NCBI RefSeq assembly: GCF_900100365.1
Contig: NZ_FNKU01000003.1
Span: 1 to 64,000 of the forward strand
Origin: Pseudomonas cannabina
GTDB lineage: Bacteria > Pseudomonadota > Gammaproteobacteria > Pseudomonadales > Pseudomonadaceae
Reading direction: 5' to 3'
Length of the DNA: 64,000 nt
Numbering within the stretch: the first letter of the stretch is position 1; the number at the start of each line of letters is the position of its first letter. Position numbers and translations under genes: made by a program. The notes under the pieces are model-generated. The model saw only the letters and a list, made by a program, of their open reading frames with translations. It had not been told where the DNA came from and made no database searches. This document shows positions 26,960-35,729 of this stretch, piece by piece.

Positions 26960-28469
26960 ATGTATAGGAATTTCAATAATTCCTATACAAGGTAATCCGC
27001 CGAAAAAGGTCCCCTCGGCGTGATGCCAACGTGGCGTCGATGTCGGCAAAAAGCTTTTTTCACCCATCACCCACGCCGAAAAATGGATTGAAAGCGACTT
27101 TTCTGTACCTTTTCCAGATTTTGGACGCACCTCTCCCGTATCAGGCCGGCACGTACCTCAATTGCGCGATGCTTTGAGCGTTGTTGATCAAGCCCTGCAC
27201 GGTCAGGCCGGCGATGGCTGCGGTATAAACCATCCGTGCTCCGCACAGCACGCAGCTGAACGGATCCCGCTGCAAGAACGCTTTGCTCATCTGCGCAAAA
27301 TACAGTTTTGGCGCTTTGCCACGCCTTTCCATGCGTAGCGCCTCATACACCCGGGGTAGCTGTCGGCCACAGACGCGGTTGGCCAGAAATCCAAAATACC
27401 GGATCATCCGAAAGTGCTTTTCGGGGATGTGCTGCACCACCCGGCGCAGCATGTCGGTCTGGCTCAGCGTTTCCTGCTGATAGGTCTTGGTGCGGTGATC
27501 CAGGTAGGTGAAGCTCAACGTGGCACCGGAGGTGTAGTGCGCCAGACGACTGCCCGAGATGGGCGGTTTTTTCAGGTAGCGGCCCAGGTAATTGACGGTC
27601 TTTCGGCCGTTTTTCGTCTTCTTCGACAAGTGGATGTGCCAGTGCTGACCACCGGCGTTGAGCACAAGGTGACGCCAGTCATTTTCGCTCTGCAGATGAG
27701 CGTTTTCAGGTGGGACGGTGGTGTGCTCCCACTGACTGAGCAGGTACTGGCGTACATTCCACATCCAGCGCCGACGCAAGGCTGATGGATGAAACGACAG
27801 ATCTTTCCAGACACCTGCGTCATCGATCCCACCCAAGGTGACCGAGACATGGATGTGGGGGTGCCAGTTAAGTCGCCGGCCGTAGGTGTGGATGGCGCAG
27901 AAAACACCCACCTCCACGCCCCGGCGTCGGCCCGCATAGAGCAGGTTGTCGACGGCCAGGCGACACAAGGCATCGAGCCAGTGACGGTTATGAAAGAACA
28001 GCGGCCACAGGGTGTCAGGCAATGTGAACACCAGGTGTTGCCAGGTACACTCGGGTAAGCGGTGCTGTTGATTGGCGATCCACTGATCGGTAGCTTTTTT
28101 GCCGCAGGATGGACAGGCGCGGCAGCTGCAGGTGTTGCACAGGTATTTGGCGTGCGGGCAGCTGTCGTTGCCGCAGGTGTAGTGTTTGACGCCCAGGATC
28201 GAGGTGCCGCAGGCCAGCATTTTGGTGACGGACTCGACTTCGATGTCGCGCAAGCCGCCCTCCTCGAGGAGGTGTGCCCAGCATTGATTGGCGGTGAAGA
28301 GGTTTTTGAGTGGTCGAGGTGTGTAGGCTGGACTCATCTGAAGCAGCAACGGTGGGTAAGCAGGCTTCATGATGATCAATAATGGGCCTCATGACAAAGC
28401 TCAAATCCATGTTTCTGCTGCTACGCGATCGCAAGAACGGGCGATTTGCAGCCGCAGGCTGCCCTGTTC
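26960..28469 (-). mobile_element. IS801 (IS91 family), copy 1
   Basis: About 1.5 kb. The ori end at 26960 starts with the hairpin ATGTATAGGAATT...AATTCCTATAC next to CTTG, one of the accepted IS91/IS801 target tetranucleotides. The other end has the GCAGCCGCAGGCTGC palindrome (28450-28464) and abuts rulB sequence. The transposase runs toward the ori end. Left and right flanks are unrelated (rep region and rulB), pointing to one-ended movement or later rearrangement. Confidence 0.9.
27141..28379 (-). CDS. tnpA: IS801 transposase (HUH/Y2 type)
   Basis: 412 residues; MSPAYTP within the N-terminus may be the real start. Two zinc-binding clusters are seen (CGNDSCPHAKYLCNTC and CRACPSCGKK, residues ~68-95). 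The HUH motif is WHPHIHVSVT, and the catalytic region includes NYLGRYLKK with a Tyr. IS91-family enzymes nick at the ori end and move by rolling circle. The copies here are nearly identical, so recent activity is likely. Confidence 0.95.
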   Translation of the reverse strand: MIIMKPAYPPLLLQMSPAYTPRPLKNLFTANQCWAHLLEEGGLRDIEVESVTKMLACGTSILGVKHYTCGNDSCPHAKYLCNTCSCRACPSCGKKATDQWIANQQHRLPECTWQHLVFTLPDTLWPLFFHNRHWLDALCRLAVDNLLYAGRRRGVEVGVFCAIHTYGRRLNWHPHIHVSVTLGGIDDAGVWKDLSFHPSALRRRWMWNVRQYLLSQWEHTTVPPENAHLQSENDWRHLVLNAGGQHWHIHLSKKTKNGRKTVNYLGRYLKKPPISGSRLAHYTSGATLSFTYLDHRTKTYQQETLSQTDMLRRVVQHIPEKHFRMIRYFGFLANRVCGRQLPRVYEALRMERRGKAPKLYFAQMSKAFLQRDPFSCVLCGARMVYTAAIAGLTVQGLINNAQSIAQLRYVPA

Positions 28470-28822: not shown

Positions 28823-29236
28823 TCAATACTCAAACGTGCAGAGGGATGGGTTGCTTTCACTGCAACTGAGTCCGTTCCAAGCTTTCCCCACAGGTGTTGC
28901 TACCTTGAGCGTTTCAAGACTCATCCTGATTCCTGCGCTGCTATTACCCTCATAGTCGCACGCCACAAATGCATTACCTGTGATCGCGCTTCGGTTACGT
29001 ATATTTGCAGTTTTGAAAGCAATACTATTTATGTCCTTTGCATCGCCTCGCGGGTTTTCGCCTCTCCATTGTTGGTTGTTTGGGGCTGGTGCCGTATACA
29101 CAAAACCTTGCCCTTCCTGATGTTGTTTGATGACGCTGACATCCGGGCACGCGGCAGGAGTAGGAGCGGCATACACCTTGCCCATTAAAAGTGCCAAAGC
29201 AACAATGCCTACTGATTTCTTTGAGCGAGCTTTCAT
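28823..29236 (-). CDS. Small secreted protein (DUF3757-like)
   Basis: 137 residues on the minus strand. The N-terminus is a signal peptide (MKARSKKS, hydrophobic VGIVALALLMG, cleavage near VYA-AP). The mature part has four cysteines (CPDVS, ACDYEG, LSCSE, LCTFEY) and the sequence style of the DUF3757 family, small periplasmic or secreted proteins of pseudomonads with unknown role. It is carried alone on a ~1-kb insert within rulB, so it is cargo at a known insertion hotspot. Confidence 0.65.
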   Translation of the reverse strand: MKARSKKSVGIVALALLMGKVYAAPTPAACPDVSVIKQHQEGQGFVYTAPAPNNQQWRGENPRGDAKDINSIAFKTANIRNRSAITGNAFVACDYEGNSSAGIRMSLETLKVATPVGKAWNGLSCSESNPSLCTFEY

Positions 29237-29656: not shown

Positions 29657-29775
29657 CACATAAATGGCGACTTAAGCCAGCACGTGATGGCCATCATAGA
29701 ATCCATGGTCCCTGCCGTTGAGGTTTACAGCATCGATGAGGCGTTCGCAGACCTCTCCGGCATGCCTGGCAATTT
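29657..29775 (+). pseudogene. rulB: rulB fragment (continuation)
   Basis: Reads NGDLSQHVMAIIESMVPAVEVYSIDEAFADLSGMPGNL, the UmuC segment with the catalytic SIDEAF motif, directly continuing the fragment that stops at 28606. It is cut on the right by an IS91-like ori fragment. Confidence 0.9.
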
Positions 29776-29894
29776 GATAGGGATTTTCACTGCATATGTA
29801 ACGCCTCAGCGTCTTACTACGCATCGCTATGAAGGCATGACGCCTCCGTCATAGCGTCAGCCTGATGCATAGGCATTTTGAAATTCCTATGCAT
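29776..29894 (-). repeat. Solo ori-end fragment of the type-2 IS91-like element
   Basis: About 120 bp matching 34320-34440 in inverse orientation, ending with the hairpin ATGCATAGG...CCTATGCAT next to GGAC. Its terminal TAG supplies the stop codon of the MATE gene, so the insertion trimmed the end of that gene. Confidence 0.85.
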
Positions 29895-31170
29895 GGACGG
29901 AAAGACTGCTTTTGAATCTTTTATTCAAAGTAAAAACTCTAAATTGCAATAACGCTGTGACTATCAAAACGGTAGTGGCTTGCATAGTGATGAAAACATA
30001 TACAGATGCATCATTCGAGACCCCGAAGTAAATAAGTGGTATTAGAACGGCGAGCATTACAACGTTTATTATGATTTGTGGAGTTAATGTATCATTCATA
30101 GATCTTAAATGACTTGTCGTCAGCATGAAGTATGCGGAGCTAGCAATAGAGAGAGTCACTACAAAGAATGTGTTCTTACTAAACTCTAAAGAACCGTCGC
30201 CGAATATATAAAAAAGTGGCTTTCCAAAAATGAATAGCGCTACAGAAATAACTGCCACCAATATAGTACATGTAACAATTCCTTGAGTGTAAATTTTCTC
30301 CTCAACAGATTTGTTTTTACTAGCGTACACACTGTGCATCTGAGAAAAAGCGGTTATTGGTATGAGCAAACAACCTATCACTGACATACATATAGATAAA
30401 TCACCTGCAAGAGATGCTTTTATAGATAACAACTTCTCGTTAAGAAGGTAATAGTAAACTTTTTGACCTGCCAATCCAGCAGCTATAGGGAATCCAAGAA
30501 CTAATATATCATGAAATATCTTTGATCCTTTTTTTATAAAGAATATATAACCTAGCTCTTTAGAAAGAAGAACCAACGAAATCAATATAAATGTTTCTAC
30601 AATAGGAAAGTATCCTATCGCAAAATATAGAAAAAATTCTTTTGGAATGAAAAAATAAGAGATTAGCAATATTAGACATCCCAATAAAGTGCATTTCCTT
30701 TTTATCTTAGCGCAAGATGATGATCCGTCCGATGACTCATGAAAGATATGAAGAAAAGTGTTTATCACTAGTAAGGGTACGGCTAGTACGTAACAAACAG
30801 ACATTAGATTTAGTTTGTGTCCGCTAACGCCGTTAGAATAAGTATTGGATAAGAAAAAAATAATAATTGCAGCTATAACCAAAGAGGATATAGAAAAAAC
30901 TAAAGCTATTTTAAACCCATCTTCAAATATCTCCTGAGCGCTAAGAGATTTTTTTTTATTGTGAAATATATTGCCTATAGCGGCTAAGGGCATAGAAAAG
31001 ACGGTTGATACTACAGAAAAAATCGCTAGGACATAGGCGAAAACTGGAAGGTCATCAATATTTTTATGAGCCAATAATGCTGCAGCAATAGATATACCAA
31101 AAAAAGGGAATAACCTGCTGATGGTGAAGTTCCACAAATTTTTTTTTAGGTTTCTTGTATACGGCAACAT
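29887..31170 (-). CDS. MATE-type transporter of the putative peptide operon
   Basis: About 427 residues from ATG 31170, with about twelve hydrophobic segments spread over the whole length (for example LFPFFGISIAAALLA, VFSISSLVIAAIIIFF, FFVVTLSIASSAYFML). The fold class fits MATE or polysaccharide-flippase-like exporters. The start overlaps the preceding gene's stop (TAATG), so the two are translationally coupled. The codons are strikingly AT-rich compared with the plasmid backbone, indicating recent acquisition. The last residues (VHA and stop) come from the IS91-like end. Export of a modified peptide is inferred. Confidence 0.75.
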   Translation of the reverse strand: MLPYTRNLKKNLWNFTISRLFPFFGISIAAALLAHKNIDDLPVFAYVLAIFSVVSTVFSMPLAAIGNIFHNKKKSLSAQEIFEDGFKIALVFSISSLVIAAIIIFFLSNTYSNGVSGHKLNLMSVCYVLAVPLLVINTFLHIFHESSDGSSSCAKIKRKCTLLGCLILLISYFFIPKEFFLYFAIGYFPIVETFILISLVLLSKELGYIFFIKKGSKIFHDILVLGFPIAAGLAGQKVYYYLLNEKLLSIKASLAGDLSICMSVIGCLLIPITAFSQMHSVYASKNKSVEEKIYTQGIVTCTILVAVISVALFIFGKPLFYIFGDGSLEFSKNTFFVVTLSIASSAYFMLTTSHLRSMNDTLTPQIIINVVMLAVLIPLIYFGVSNDASVYVFITMQATTVLIVTALLQFRVFTLNKRFKSSLSVHA

Positions 31171-31652
31171 TACGCCTCCCATAATTGTGTCATATAATAT
31201 CCAAACTCTTCCTTGTATAGCTCCTGTACGAGCTCAAATGCTTTACCTAAGTTCTTCTTGTCATCATTACCACGTGCCCCGAAATATGGATAATGATGGA
31301 AATAGTATCCAAATATATTTTGGCAGTCTTTCATATAGGACCTAGTGTCAAGTATATGATGATGCCATATCTCATCTACCTCTAAAAGAGGGGGCAAAAC
31401 AGGATGTTTATGCAAGTATTTTTTATTTATATACAAGAAATTTTTATAATACTGGATGCCGATCTCCGCCTCTATTGGAGACCAGCGCCTACATAGTAAA
31501 GGATCACCACTGCAAAGTTTATTAAAAATTAAGGAGAAATCTATATTTTCTATGTATTGTACTGCATATTCCAAGCTTGGCTCATTTTCTAAGTTTGGTA
31601 TTTCCATAGAATGCGGGAGCGTAGCTGCAATAGCATCGTATTGCTCATTCAT
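31170..31652 (-). CDS. His-rich GRDP-like protein, possible peptide-modifying enzyme
   Basis: 160 residues from ATG 31652 (MNEQYDAIAATLPH). I reject the longer frame to 31772 because it runs over the small peptide gene in another frame. The conserved core is LEVDEIWHHHILDTRSYMKDC followed by FGYYFHHYPYFGARG. This is the signature of the glycine-rich-domain (GRDP/DUF1399-like) family, with clustered His and Asp that could bind a metal. The family's biochemical role is not established. It lies between a short Gly-rich peptide gene and a transporter, a typical RiPP order. Confidence 0.65.
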   Translation of the reverse strand: MNEQYDAIAATLPHSMEIPNLENEPSLEYAVQYIENIDFSLIFNKLCSGDPLLCRRWSPIEAEIGIQYYKNFLYINKKYLHKHPVLPPLLEVDEIWHHHILDTRSYMKDCQNIFGYYFHHYPYFGARGNDDKKNLGKAFELVQELYKEEFGYYMTQLWEA

Positions 31653-31670
31653 GACCACACCTAATAAATA

Positions 31671-31696
31671 GAGGTCGATCGCCCTTAGGCGATCGA
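31671..31696. terminator. Stem-loop after the peptide gene
   Basis: Perfect 10-bp arms GTCGATCGCC / GGCGATCGAC with a 4-base loop, between the peptide stop and the next start. It is followed by an AT-rich stretch on the minus strand. It could act as a partial terminator giving more peptide mRNA than enzyme mRNA. Confidence 0.6.
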
Positions 31697-31707
31697 CACA
31701 AGACTGC

Positions 31708-31842
31708 TTACCAGCCACCGCCACCTTGGCAATGGCCGCCACCGTCATTTTTCCCAGCTTTGCGGGCTGCAATATATTGCATTGCGGCTACTGAAAGGGT
31801 TTGAGCTGGTTTATTGCTTTTTTTCGGATCAACAGACTTCAT
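31708..31842 (-). CDS. Putative RiPP precursor peptide (44 aa)
   Basis: 44 codons on the minus strand from ATG 31842, with AAGGA 9 bases upstream. The leader-like part is MKSVDPKKSNKPAQTLSVAA followed by MQYIAARKAGKN. The C-terminus is a Gly-rich core with single His, Cys and Trp: DGGGHCQGGGGW. It is first in an operon with a His-rich protein and a MATE exporter, behind a good promoter and before a stem-loop. Short charged leader, unusual core and context fit a ribosomally made, modified peptide such as a microcin. The chemistry is unknown. It is too short for ordinary gene finding. Confidence 0.6.
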   Translation of the reverse strand: MKSVDPKKSNKPAQTLSVAAMQYIAARKAGKNDGGGHCQGGGGW

Positions 31843-31897
31843 AATGATTTATCCTTAATCTTAAAAATTTTTAAGACTGCATAAGCAGTCAAAACCA

Positions 31898-31926
31898 AAC
31901 TTACCTTTCTCCCTAATGGTAGTCAA
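31898..31926 (-). promoter_or_regulatory. Promoter of the peptide operon
   Basis: On the minus strand TTGACT (31926-31921), 17 bp, TAAGTT (31903-31898). A palindrome GACTGC-TTAT-GCAGTC (31875-31890) lies just downstream and could be an operator. MITE A inserted 9 bp upstream of the -35 box. Confidence 0.6.
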
Positions 31927-31938
31927 CACAGATGTTAG

Positions 31939-32037
31939 GGAGACGCTGATTTATTCTAAAACCCAGCTGTTGCCCCCAGATAAATCAAGGCCTCCAGAGC
32001 GTTGCAGGGACGAAAAATCGAATAAATCAGCGCCTCC
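31939..32037 (+). mobile_element. MITE A, copy 12
   Basis: 99 bp, TTAG on both sides (31935-31938, 32038-32041). Its right TTAG is shared with the following MITE B. Confidence 0.92.
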
Positions 32038-32041
32038 TTAG

Positions 32042-32141
32042 GTATCCTCTGAAAAAGCCCATTTTTTTGGAGAGGAACCGGGCTGGAGCGCCTGTATTTA
32101 CTGGCTTCGACTTTTGAAGAAAAGGCTTTTTCAGACCTTCC
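32042..32141 (-). mobile_element. MITE B, copy 3
   Basis: 100 bp, TTAG on both sides (32038-32041, 32142-32145). Back to back with MITE A, and bordering the truncated type-2 IS91-like element. Confidence 0.92.
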
Positions 32142-32145
32142 TTAG

Positions 32146-32809
32146 AACGACATGTTTCCCGACGCTTCTTGCGTAAGCGTTTCGATGAGAGAAGGGCCAG
32201 GCAGATTGGCCATCACCGCCGTCATTCACCACGATGAGGAGCCGCCCTGCTGACGTGGCCTCTGCACCACCTGCTTACACACCTCGACCGCTCAAAAACC
32301 TCTTCACGGCCAACGGCTGCTGGGCAGATTTGCTGGAAGCCGGCGGTCTGCGCCAAATCGAAGTGGAGTCGATCAGCAAAATGCTCGCCTGCGGCACCTC
32401 GATACTGGGCGTCAAACACTACACCTGCGCCAATGAGCAATGCCCGCACGTCAAATACCTGTGCAACACCTGCCATTGCCGGGCCTGTCCTTCCTGCGGC
32501 AAAAAGGCCACCGACCAGTGGATCGCCGTGCAAAACAACCGTCTGCCCGACTGCCCCTGGCAGCATCTGGTGTTCACGCTGCCCGACACGCTATGGCCCC
32601 TGTTCTTCTACAACCGCTGGCTGCTCGATGCGCTGTTTCGGCTGGCGGCCGATAACCTGATCTACGCCGCCAAGCGGCGCGGTTTGCGCGTCGGGATTTT
32701 CGGGGCGCTGCACACCTATGGCCGGCGGCTCAACTGGCATCCCCACGTGCACCTGTCGGTGACCGCGGGCGGCCTGGATGAGCAGGGCGTCTGGAAAAAT
32801 CTGTCGTTC
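32146..32809 (+). pseudogene. Truncated type-2 IS91-like element (5' part of transposase)
   Basis: Begins inside the small upstream frame of the type-2 element (NDMFPDASCVSVSMREG) and continues into its transposase from 32234 (MRSRPADVASAPP...). It includes both zinc clusters and WHPHVHLSVT, and ends at LSF where IS801 copy 2 inserted after GTTC (32806-32809). The 3' half is absent from this copy. Confidence 0.88.
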
Positions 32810-34319
32810 ATGTATAGGAATTTCAATAATTCCTATACAGGGTAATCCTCCTAAAAAGGCACCCTCTGCGTGATGCCAACGTGGCGTCGATGTCGGCAAA
32901 AAGCTTTTTTAACCCATCACCCACGCCGAAAAATGGATTGAAAGCGACTTTTCTGTACCTTTTCCAGATTTTGGACGCACCTCTCCCGTATCAGGCCGGC
33001 ACGTACCTCAATTGCGCGATGCTTTGAGCGTTGTTGATCAAGCCCTGCACCGTCAGGCCGGCGATGGCTGCGGTGTACACCATCCGCGCTCCGCACAGCA
33101 CGCAGCTGAACGGATCCCGCTGCAAGAACGCTTTGCTCATCTGCGCAAAATACAGTTTTGGCGCTTTGCCACGCCTTTCCATGCGTAGCGCCTCATACAC
33201 CCGGGGTAGCTGTCGGCCACAGACGCGGTTGGCCAGAAATCCAAAATACCGGATCATCCGAAAGTGCTTTTCGGGGATGTGCTGCACCACCCGGCGCAGC
33301 ATGTCGGTCTGGCTCAGCGTTTCCTGCTGATAGGTCTTGGTGCGGTGATCCAGGTAGGTGAAGCTCAACGTGGCACCGGAGGTGTAGTGCGCCAGACGAC
33401 TGCCCGAGATGGGCGGTTTTTTCAGGTAGCGGCCCAGGTAATTGACGGTCTTTCGGCCGTTTTTCGTCTTCTTCGACAAGTGGATGTGCCAGTGCTGACC
33501 ACCGGCGTTGAGCACAAGGTGACGCCAGTCATTTTCGCTCTGCAGATGAGCGTTTTCAGGTGGGACGGTGGTGTGCTCCCACTGACTGAGCAGGTACTGG
33601 CGTACATTCCACATCCAGCGCCGACGCAAGGCTGATGGATGAAACGACAGATCTTTCCAGACACCTGCGTCATCGATCCCACCCAAGGTGACCGAGACAT
33701 GGATGTGGGGGTGCCAGTTAAGTCGCCGGCCGTAGGTGTGGATGGCGCAGAAAACACCCACCTCCACGCCCCGGCGTCGGCCCGCATAGAGCAGGTTGTC
33801 GACGGCCAGGCGACACAAGGCATCGAGCCAGTGACGGTTATGAAAGAACAGTGGCCACAGGGTGTCAGGCAATGTGAACACCAGGTGTTGCCAGGTACAC
33901 TCGGGTAAGCGGTGCTGTTGATTGGCGATCCACTGATCGGTAGCTTTTTTGCCGCAGGATGGACAGGCGCGGCAGCTGCAGGTGTTGCACAGGTATTTGG
34001 CGTGCGGGCAGCTGTCGTTGCCGCAGGTGTAGTGTTTGACGCCCAGGATCGAGGTGCCGCAGGCCAGCATTTTGGTGACGGACTCGACTTCGATGTCGCG
34101 CAAGCCGCCCTCCTCGAGGAGGTGTGCCCAGCATTGATTGGCGGTGAAGAGGTTTTTGAGTGGTCGAGGTGTGTAGGCTGGACTCATCTGAAGCAGCAAC
34201 GGTGGGTAAGCAGGCTTCATGATGATCAATAATGGGCCTCATGACAAAGCTCAAATCCATGTTTCTGCTGCTACGCGATCGCAAGAACGGGCGATTTGCA
34301 GCCGCAGGCTGCCCTGTTC
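32810..34319 (-). mobile_element. IS801, copy 2
   Basis: About 1.5 kb and complete. The ori hairpin at 32810 follows GTTC; the other end (GCAGCCGCAGGCTGC) is followed by GTTC and then, immediately, the ori end of a type-2 element. Nearly identical to copy 1. Confidence 0.92.
32991..34229 (-). CDS. tnpA: IS801 transposase, copy 2
   Basis: 412 residues, identical in sequence to the enzyme at 27141-28379 apart from silent changes. Zinc clusters, HUH motif and catalytic Tyr region are all intact. It is inserted inside a related transposase gene, showing successive IS91-family insertions. Confidence 0.95.
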   Translation of the reverse strand: MIIMKPAYPPLLLQMSPAYTPRPLKNLFTANQCWAHLLEEGGLRDIEVESVTKMLACGTSILGVKHYTCGNDSCPHAKYLCNTCSCRACPSCGKKATDQWIANQQHRLPECTWQHLVFTLPDTLWPLFFHNRHWLDALCRLAVDNLLYAGRRRGVEVGVFCAIHTYGRRLNWHPHIHVSVTLGGIDDAGVWKDLSFHPSALRRRWMWNVRQYLLSQWEHTTVPPENAHLQSENDWRHLVLNAGGQHWHIHLSKKTKNGRKTVNYLGRYLKKPPISGSRLAHYTSGATLSFTYLDHRTKTYQQETLSQTDMLRRVVQHIPEKHFRMIRYFGFLANRVCGRQLPRVYEALRMERRGKAPKLYFAQMSKAFLQRDPFSCVLCGARMVYTAAIAGLTVQGLINNAQSIAQLRYVPA

Positions 34320-34499: not shown

Positions 34500-35729
34500 T
34501 CAGGGCTTCACGTACCTCATCTGCGCGATCGCCTGAGCGTTGAGGACCAGTCCCTGTACCGTCAGCCCGCTGATTGCCGCCGTGTATACCATCCGCGCGC
34601 CACACAGCACGCAACGGAACGGATCGACGTTTAGAAAGGCTTTGGCCATCTGCACAAAATACAGCTTCGGTGTCGGTCCTGGCGTCGCCATCTTCAATGC
34701 TTCATACACCTTCGGCAGGTATTTCCCACACACCCGATTGGCCAGAAAACCAAAATACCGGATCATCCGGAAATGCTTTTCCGGGATGTGCTGCACCACC
34801 CGGCGCAGCATGTCGGCCTGGCTCAGCGTTTCCTGCTGATAGGTCTGTGTGCGGTGATCCAGGTAGGTGAAGCTCAACGTGGCCCCGTTGGTGTAATGCG
34901 CCAGACGACTGCCCGAGATCGGCGGTTTTTTCAGGTAGCGGCCCAGGTAATTGACGGTCTTTCGGCCGTTTTCCGTCTTCTTCGACAAGTGGATGTGCCA
35001 GTGCTGGCCGCCAGCGGTCAGTATCAGACGGTGCCAGTCGCTTTCACAGTGGATGTGGGCCAGCGGCGGCGGCATCGTCAGTTGCGAAAGCGGCTGTCCC
35101 AGCAGGTAATCGCGCACCAGCCACATCCAGCGCCGCCGCAGGGCCTCTTTGTGGAACGACAGATTTTTCCAGACGCCCTGCTCATCCAGGCCGCCCGCGG
35201 TCACCGACAGGTGGACGTGGGGATGCCAGTTGAGCCGCCGTCCATAGGTGTGCAGCGCCCCGAAAATCCCGACGCGCAAACCGCGCCGCTTGGCGGTGTA
35301 GATCAGGTTATCGGCCGCCAGACGAAACAGCGCATCAAGCAGCCAGCGGTTGTAGAAGAACAGGGACCACAGCGTGTCGGGCAGCGTGAACACCAGATGC
35401 TGCCAGGGGCAGTCGGGCAGACGGTTGTTTTGCACGGCGATCCACTGGTCGGTGGCCTTTTTGCCGCAGGAAGGACAGGCCCGGCAATGGCAGGTGTTGC
35501 ACAGGTATTTGACGTGCGGGCAGCTGTCGTTGCCGCAGGTGTAGTGTTTGACGCCCAGTATCGAGGTGCCGCAGGCGAGCATTTTGCTGATCGACTCCAC
35601 TTCGATTTGGCGCAGACCGCCGGCCTCCAGCAAATCTGCCCAGCAGCCGTTGGCCGTGAAGAGGTTTTTGAGCGGTCGAGGTTTGTAAGCAGGCGGTGCA
35701 GAGGCCACGTCAGCAGGGCGGCTCCTCAT
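34500..35729 (-). CDS. Transposase of the type-2 IS91-like element
   Basis: 409 residues, clearly related to the IS801 enzyme (same zinc clusters CPHVKYLCNTC and CRACPSCGKK, HUH motif WHPHVHLSVT, NYLGRYLKK) but diverged along its length and with a different N-terminus (MRSRPADVASAPPAYKP). It overlaps the preceding small frame by 20 bp. HUH-type rolling-circle transposition is expected. Confidence 0.93.
   Translation of the reverse strand: MRSRPADVASAPPAYKPRPLKNLFTANGCWADLLEAGGLRQIEVESISKMLACGTSILGVKHYTCGNDSCPHVKYLCNTCHCRACPSCGKKATDQWIAVQNNRLPDCPWQHLVFTLPDTLWSLFFYNRWLLDALFRLAADNLIYTAKRRGLRVGIFGALHTYGRRLNWHPHVHLSVTAGGLDEQGVWKNLSFHKEALRRRWMWLVRDYLLGQPLSQLTMPPPLAHIHCESDWHRLILTAGGQHWHIHLSKKTENGRKTVNYLGRYLKKPPISGSRLAHYTNGATLSFTYLDHRTQTYQQETLSQADMLRRVVQHIPEKHFRMIRYFGFLANRVCGKYLPKVYEALKMATPGPTPKLYFVQMAKAFLNVDPFRCVLCGARMVYTAAISGLTVQGLVLNAQAIAQMRYVKP

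Follow-up and report, generated by a model that had tools for sequence, protein, structure and literature searches.

The GRDP-like protein encoded in the window, the whole 64,000-nucleotide stretch of Pseudomonas cannabina DNA analyzed here, probably belongs to a family of cysteine-directed maturases that has so far gone undescribed, and the three-gene operon in which it lies would then constitute a minimal RiPP-type cluster, a reading drawn from sequence comparison that we hold with moderate confidence. We infer the following course of events, from enzymatic action on a cysteine to the involvement of a metal and export: a 44-amino acid peptide would be the precursor, which a stem-loop probably allows to outnumber the enzyme; the GRDP-like protein would bind this precursor and modify the Cys of its HCQGGGxW core, with a metal most likely held by residues among D93, H97, C110, and H120; and a MATE/MOP-type protein would export the product. 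The substrates of GRDP-like proteins could be either a separate short peptide (in trans) or the protein's own C-terminal tail (in cis).

All parts of the operon lie on the minus strand. A promoter-like string, TTGACT-17-TAAGTT (31898-31926, a sequence match only), precedes the ATG of the peptide by 55 nt. The peptide ORF (31708-31842) comprises 44 codons, ends with DGGGHCQGGGGW, and is recognized by its reading frame, its homologues, and the codon pattern of its core. It is followed by a predicted 24-nt stem-loop (10-bp stem, 4-nt loop; 31674-31697) and by the gene of the 160-amino acid GRDP-like protein (31170-31652), which contains the strings WHHHILDT and HHYPYFG and is supported by its ORF, profile, residues, and structural model. 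The ATG of the transporter gene (29887-31170) overlaps the stop codon of the GRDP-like gene (TAATG), and its product is modelled with 12 helices and a predicted MATE/MOP fold. These features had been described in an earlier note on this DNA, as had an AT-rich composition and a boundary of mobile elements, and the sequence bears the description out: the GC content of the operon is 35.9% vs. 54.4% across the window, and both flanks are occupied by repeats. One of them (31936-32150) exists in many copies. The repeat on the left flank (29772-29899), of which the window has three further copies, extends over the stop and the last three codons of the transporter gene, so that the C-terminus of the transporter is unlike that of its relatives. 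IS91-family transposase genes are located at 27141-28379 and 34500-35729, with a third copy at 32991-34229 that reads identical to the one at 27141-28379, and genes for a topoisomerase, a ParA-type protein, a DotM-type protein, and an integrase give the surroundings a plasmid-like character. Between the flanking repeats, there is no additional ORF of at least 120 aa, and among ORFs of this size there is no leader-removal protease, which is common in RiPP clusters but not required. The GRDP-like protein is regarded as the modifier because the operon offers no other enzyme. ORF translations and profile searches revealed no metal-related gene among the three genes. Past the left repeat, a separate minus-strand ORF (28823-29236) matches DUF3757 (PF12582, 25.6 bits).

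As judged from its homologues and codon pattern, the 44-codon peptide, which the earlier note had picked out from its reading frame, is a real gene. It can be divided into a leader, MKSVDPKKSNKPAQTLSVAAMQYIAARKAGKN, and a putative core, DGGGHCQGGGGW, at a boundary that we have guessed. A profile search yielded at least 65 peptide homologues at E-values up to 10. HCQGGG is present in all 38 homologues inspected, 34 of which terminate with Trp (the exceptions are P0133, P0161, P0162, and P0167), and this core, almost always ending in Trp-stop, is found from Pseudomonas to a Legionellaceae bacterium. Across 12 loci (L001-L005, L007, L008, L010, the window, L017, L072, and L075), the HCQGGG codons vary at 6/6 third positions and at 0/12 first or second positions, which implies that the peptide sequence is under selection. 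The leaders are variable, mainly of two kinds (KPxQxLSxEA and MKKVKMVKK-like), and the core is constant; the peptide thus has the makings of a RiPP precursor, i.e., a short ribosomal product with a conserved core and a variable leader.

The presence of such peptides beside GRDP-like genes in other genomes had been set beforehand as the test by which the proposal could fail, and the outcome is favorable. Among 11 relatives from named genomes, eight (L001-L005, L007, L008, L010) carry an HCQGGG short ORF directly upstream of the GRDP-like gene, in which HCQGGG is followed by 1-3 residues and Trp-stop; in L010, the GRDP-like reading frame is itself interrupted. A Delftia locus (L006) carries ..GQHCEGRWPDHT rather than the HCQGGG peptide, and the short ORFs of two Xenorhabdus loci end with MKRTRKIAKPSACE and MKRTRKIAKPARCEVTD. 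When 398 Pseudomonas genomes were scanned for the DNA motif of the peptide, 17 matches were obtained in 16 genomes. The five matches that are short ..W-stop ORFs all sit upstream of a GRDP-like gene, although three of them come from assemblies already counted as L001, L004, and L005 and hence partly repeat the evidence; the remaining 12 fall in unrelated frames. In matching loci, the peptide and the GRDP-like gene are separated by 52-64 nt. A close GRDP homologue (E < 1e-60) is encoded in six of the Pseudomonas genomes, five of which contain the peptide. In the sixth (L018), no peptide was detected in 700 nt upstream of the GRDP-like gene, but the region retains MRLILKVEDLDM, which resembles the start of P0162, and because of this remnant the peptide was probably lost. 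Pairing by assembly extends the linkage: 20 of 64 peptide homologues (two of them L002 and L075 again) agree exactly in the size of the longest contig with a GRDP homologue among the 120 that were listed from 291, and controls with sizes shifted by 1-50 gave 0.6 such pairs on average and 3 at most. In terms of gene linkage, a candidate modifying enzyme therefore accompanies the precursor across genomes. Furthermore, a stem-loop is predicted to fold in 12/12 intergenic regions between peptide and GRDP-like gene, with differing sequences and z-scores from -1.7 to -4.3 (mean -3.1).

Several of these loci deserve separate mention. On plasmids of P. savastanoi pv. phaseolicola 1448A (L073) and P. 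amygdali pv. aesculi (L074), the peptide ORF is intact, and in both cases about 100 bases interrupt the GRDP frame at an identical point, behind the residues ..LCRRWSPLG; in L074, the long transporter ORF is gone as well. The system is thus apparently dispensable in these plant-associated Pseudomonas plasmids. In a Halomonas plasmid (L075), the operon adjoins an acyl-homoserine-lactone synthase and a LuxR-type regulator, which suggests quorum control. The operon copy of P. viridiflava (L001, 5812-7785) lies beside a gene that we take to be znuA, for zinc uptake, whereas other Pseudomonas copies adjoin a gene that is presumably comF-like.

The GRDP-like protein of the window scores 21.1 bits against PF07173 (DUF1399), just under the gathering cut-off of 22.7, which is passed by its relatives in L019 (26.3) and L046 (30.4). 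For the 120 homologues of the window protein that were listed from a total of 291, there is a precomputed match to PF27765, a newer family without a name. A GRDP profile scan of the fetched loci provided 93 distinct GRDP proteins, in which W96, Y106, and H120 are invariant (93/93), followed by P122 (92/92), P88 (92/93), C110 (90), D93 (89), H97 (88), G115 (87), and H119 (83). The resulting near-invariant signature, DxxWH-Y-C-HxP (D93-W96-H97-Y106-C110-H120-P122), is perhaps a metal site. The designation of the protein as His-rich was overstated: H120, H97, and H119 are the conserved histidines, and position 99 is His in 62 proteins and Phe in 31. An AlphaFold2 model (pLDDT 94.0, pTM 0.90) is all-alpha; one helix bears D93-H97, the following helix bears Y106-C110, and H119-H120 come thereafter, so that the polar residues of the signature can plausibly meet in the modelled fold. 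A fold search against the PDB gave no convincing match to a solved structure, and hence there is no template from which a mechanism could be borrowed. Among predicted structures, the model matches that of a GRDP-like protein from Harvfovirus (E 1.6e-4, probability 1.00), and by way of such giant-virus models the same fold is predicted for the window protein and for named GRDP proteins. Giant viruses (BFVD) encode GRDP-like proteins, as does a 595-kb uncultured phage (L082), whose GRDP domain carries a Cys/His/Gly tail.

What connects most of the diverse GRDP-like proteins is the company of cysteines. In 83 of 92, a Cys-containing partner was assigned by our own reading, i.e., a neighboring peptide, the protein's own C-terminal tail, or an adjacent TIGR04222 membrane protein that ends in a Gly/Cys tail, a count over related rows that may take in chance upstream Cys ORFs. 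At least two Cys occur in the last 40 residues of 54/65 long-tailed GRDP proteins vs. 23/210 neighboring ORFs (Fisher p 7e-28, with rows that are not independent), and the Cys content of these ends is 8.1% vs. 1.7%; a long tail is defined here as at least 18 residues past the profile match and may include the end of the domain. Some tails consist of repeated cores: nine AYCAGPH-like repeats in L087, eight AFCAGPH in L111, five AYCAR/AYCAL-type repeats each in L078 and L083, and three AWCSL in L077. Others are of a Cys-His type (L019, L022, L024-L026, L044, L086, L089), and membrane-type GRDP forms (L032, L034-L040, and others) bear Gly-Cys tails such as GGCGGGGCGGGGGD. It is because of these cis-fusions to repeated Cys cores that a modification of the core by the GRDP-like protein becomes much more likely.

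Short-tailed GRDP proteins are adjoined by a Cys peptide in 21 of 28 cases (again by our reading). These trans peptides are of the HCQGGGxW kind or of a CNGxCASGxC-like kind (L045, L046, L050, L051, L056, and, only with a TTG start, L052); peptides of the broader CxGxC type are found in L045-L047, L049-L051, and L056, and likewise in L052 only with a TTG start. Weaker cases, with one locus or one Cys, are L006, L009, L011, L076, and L081, the last with a downstream partner that contains two FCFL. Longer tails and trans peptides occur together in L049 and in the two tandem GRDP genes of L095, whose tandem peptides combine a leader of the GG type with cores that resemble FCFELCWEFCLSICF. No Cys partner was found for nine of the 92 proteins (L018, L027, L029, L030, L031, L057, L063, L066, and the second copy in L094); L027, L029, L030, and L031 form a single Pseudomonas clade next to a Cys-tailed one and possibly have a lost or unlinked substrate. 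In an Azospirillum plasmid (L079), downstream of a GRDP protein whose short tail contains Cys, a methyltransferase and a TauD-type dioxygenase are encoded, which are possible further tailoring enzymes.

The earlier note had the GRDP-like protein modify a His/Cys/Trp core. A His or Trp target finds no support, since neither the His nor the Trp of the core extends family-wide; the partner sequences have only Cys in common, which often follows an aromatic residue in peptide and repeat types (HC, YC, WC, FC), and for this reason modification, if it occurs, is read as Cys-directed. The same sequences bear on a different role, in which the GRDP-like protein would serve in binding or in the delivery of metal, Cys-containing peptides and tails would act as metal chelators in unmodified form, and the transporter would move the metal-peptide complex. 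The tail of the phage protein, rich in Cys, Gly, and His, and the possible metal residues of the GRDP domain would agree with it, and bufferins, which are Cys peptides encoded in MNIO clusters, chelate copper according to the accessible text of PMC12452194. However, the window core holds a single Cys, as does each AYCAR or AWCSL repeat, which in our judgement would chelate poorly without modification, and the three-gene operon lacks a metal gene, so that we consider this role unlikely. Still less probable, to the point of being quite doubtful, is that the peptide acts without modification as a bacteriocin, signal, or toxin, for which the GRDP-like protein provides immunity, chaperoning, or regulation and the MATE protein provides export: the plasmid-like location, the mobile surroundings, and the acyl-homoserine-lactone synthase and LuxR gene next to the Halomonas copy would suit such a function, which however leaves unexplained the eight or nine Cys repeats in cis, the fusions to and splits from TIGR04222, and a D-W-H-Y-C-H site that is near-invariant despite wide divergence.

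Cysteine-directed maturation might apply to the whole family or to a part of it. In three proteins (L064, L102, L105), the GRDP domain is fused to TIGR04222 plus a tail, and in L103 and L107 the tail is encoded by a TIGR04222 gene that lies immediately downstream of a GRDP gene without a tail. Partner states cluster on a tree of 92 GRDP proteins (15 changes vs. 46.6 when shuffled), with the separate-peptide state in several separate parts and the membrane-type class in a part of its own. The tails differ greatly, e.g., CGGGGCGGGGGD vs. AYCAR, so that a chemistry common to all of them would be conjectural. A narrower reading accepts the HCQGGGxW operon as a true RiPP cluster and regards the Gly/Cys tails of membrane GRDP proteins (the CGGGGCGGGGGD class) as low-complexity sequence rather than substrates. 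It draws on the separate position of this class on the tree and on the occurrence of such tails on proteins without GRDP, such as TIGR04222 (accessible text of PMC12452194), and is challenged by GRDP-TIGR04222 pairs that exist both split and fused and by the plant protein AtGRDP2, in which Cys residues are likewise scattered through a Gly-rich domain at the C-terminus (available text of PMC4299439). We regard it as possible, if rather improbable; it overlaps with the explanation that we prefer, and the likelihoods attached to the various readings do not sum to one.

The assignment of the third gene product as a MATE exporter stands in part. The transporter model (pLDDT 81.9) has the 12 helices of the MOP fold and matches MATE, MurJ, and WzxE with a Foldseek probability of 1.00 (best E 1e-7), which supports a MATE-type fold. 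Unlike MATE/MOP transporters such as NorM, MurJ, and WzxE, to which its identity is 11-15%, it matches neither a Pfam family, MATE included, at E-values up to 1, nor NCBIfam, and it might export the modified peptide. In four other loci (L046, L047, L052, L080), a CxGxC-type peptide and a GRDP gene are followed by what we read as an ABC-transporter ATPase-like gene, not MATE, on the basis of GPNGAGKST in L052 and similar starts in the others.

If GRDP-like proteins act as Cys-directed maturases, a RiPP-type class has been missed by MNIO-centered mining, and a testable function, Cys-directed peptide modification, is at hand for a domain of bacteria, giant viruses, and plants that is without an assigned activity. 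They would also be candidate enzymes for some TIGR04222 proteins, whose tails are proposed as MNIO substrates and which occur in genomes without MNIO in 490 of 1372 cases (accessible text of PMC12452194). The tails of plant GRDP proteins might be modified as well. Going further, the GRDP-like/DUF1399 superfamily of bacteria, huge phage, giant viruses, and plants could consist of ancient metal-dependent enzymes that modify Cys in Gly- or aromatic-flanked sequences in cis or trans; we put this forward tentatively, as a conjecture that falls short of an even chance, and it would imply a new post-translational chemistry parallel to that of MNIO enzymes and a function for plant GRDP proteins. Among the listed titles and abstract openings, a scope outside which preprints and most subscription journals lie, no literature was found that links GRDP/DUF1399 to peptide maturation.

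Among known systems, those of MNIO (DUF692, PF05114), i.e., methanobactins, bufferins, and TIGR04222, resemble GRDP loci in combining one enzyme with small Cys precursors or Cys/Gly C-terminal tails, and TIGR04222 proteins are common to both. Unlike MNIO, the GRDP-like protein is modelled all-alpha, and no sequence relation was seen. Among 42 GRDP genomes examined of about 98 (the window's own apart), MNIO is absent in 17 and present in 25, in no case seen beside the GRDP locus; the nearest on a shared contig lies at a distance of about 66 kb from GRDP, and others are farther away or on other contigs, where closeness is possible given the draft assemblies. The window locus contains no PF05114 gene, and the MNIO of its own genome lies on contig C1, the window on C3. 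In borosins, an N-methyltransferase is fused to its own C-terminal core. Some GRDP members similarly unite enzyme and core in one chain, and others keep them separate; self-modification is considered for the former because repeated cores are fused to the enzyme, as in borosins. Unlike borosins, the GRDP-like protein has no methyltransferase domain in a profile search, and its apparent target is Cys. The closest likeness in sequence is to PF07173 (DUF1399) proteins, including plant AtGRDP1/2, which have the same WH..Y..C..HxP region. According to the listed literature and the available text of PMC4299439, plant GRDP proteins have been studied for stress and development, unlike the peptide maturation considered here, and the Cys-bearing Gly-rich domain at the C-terminus of AtGRDP2 extends the pairing of GRDP with Cys to plants.
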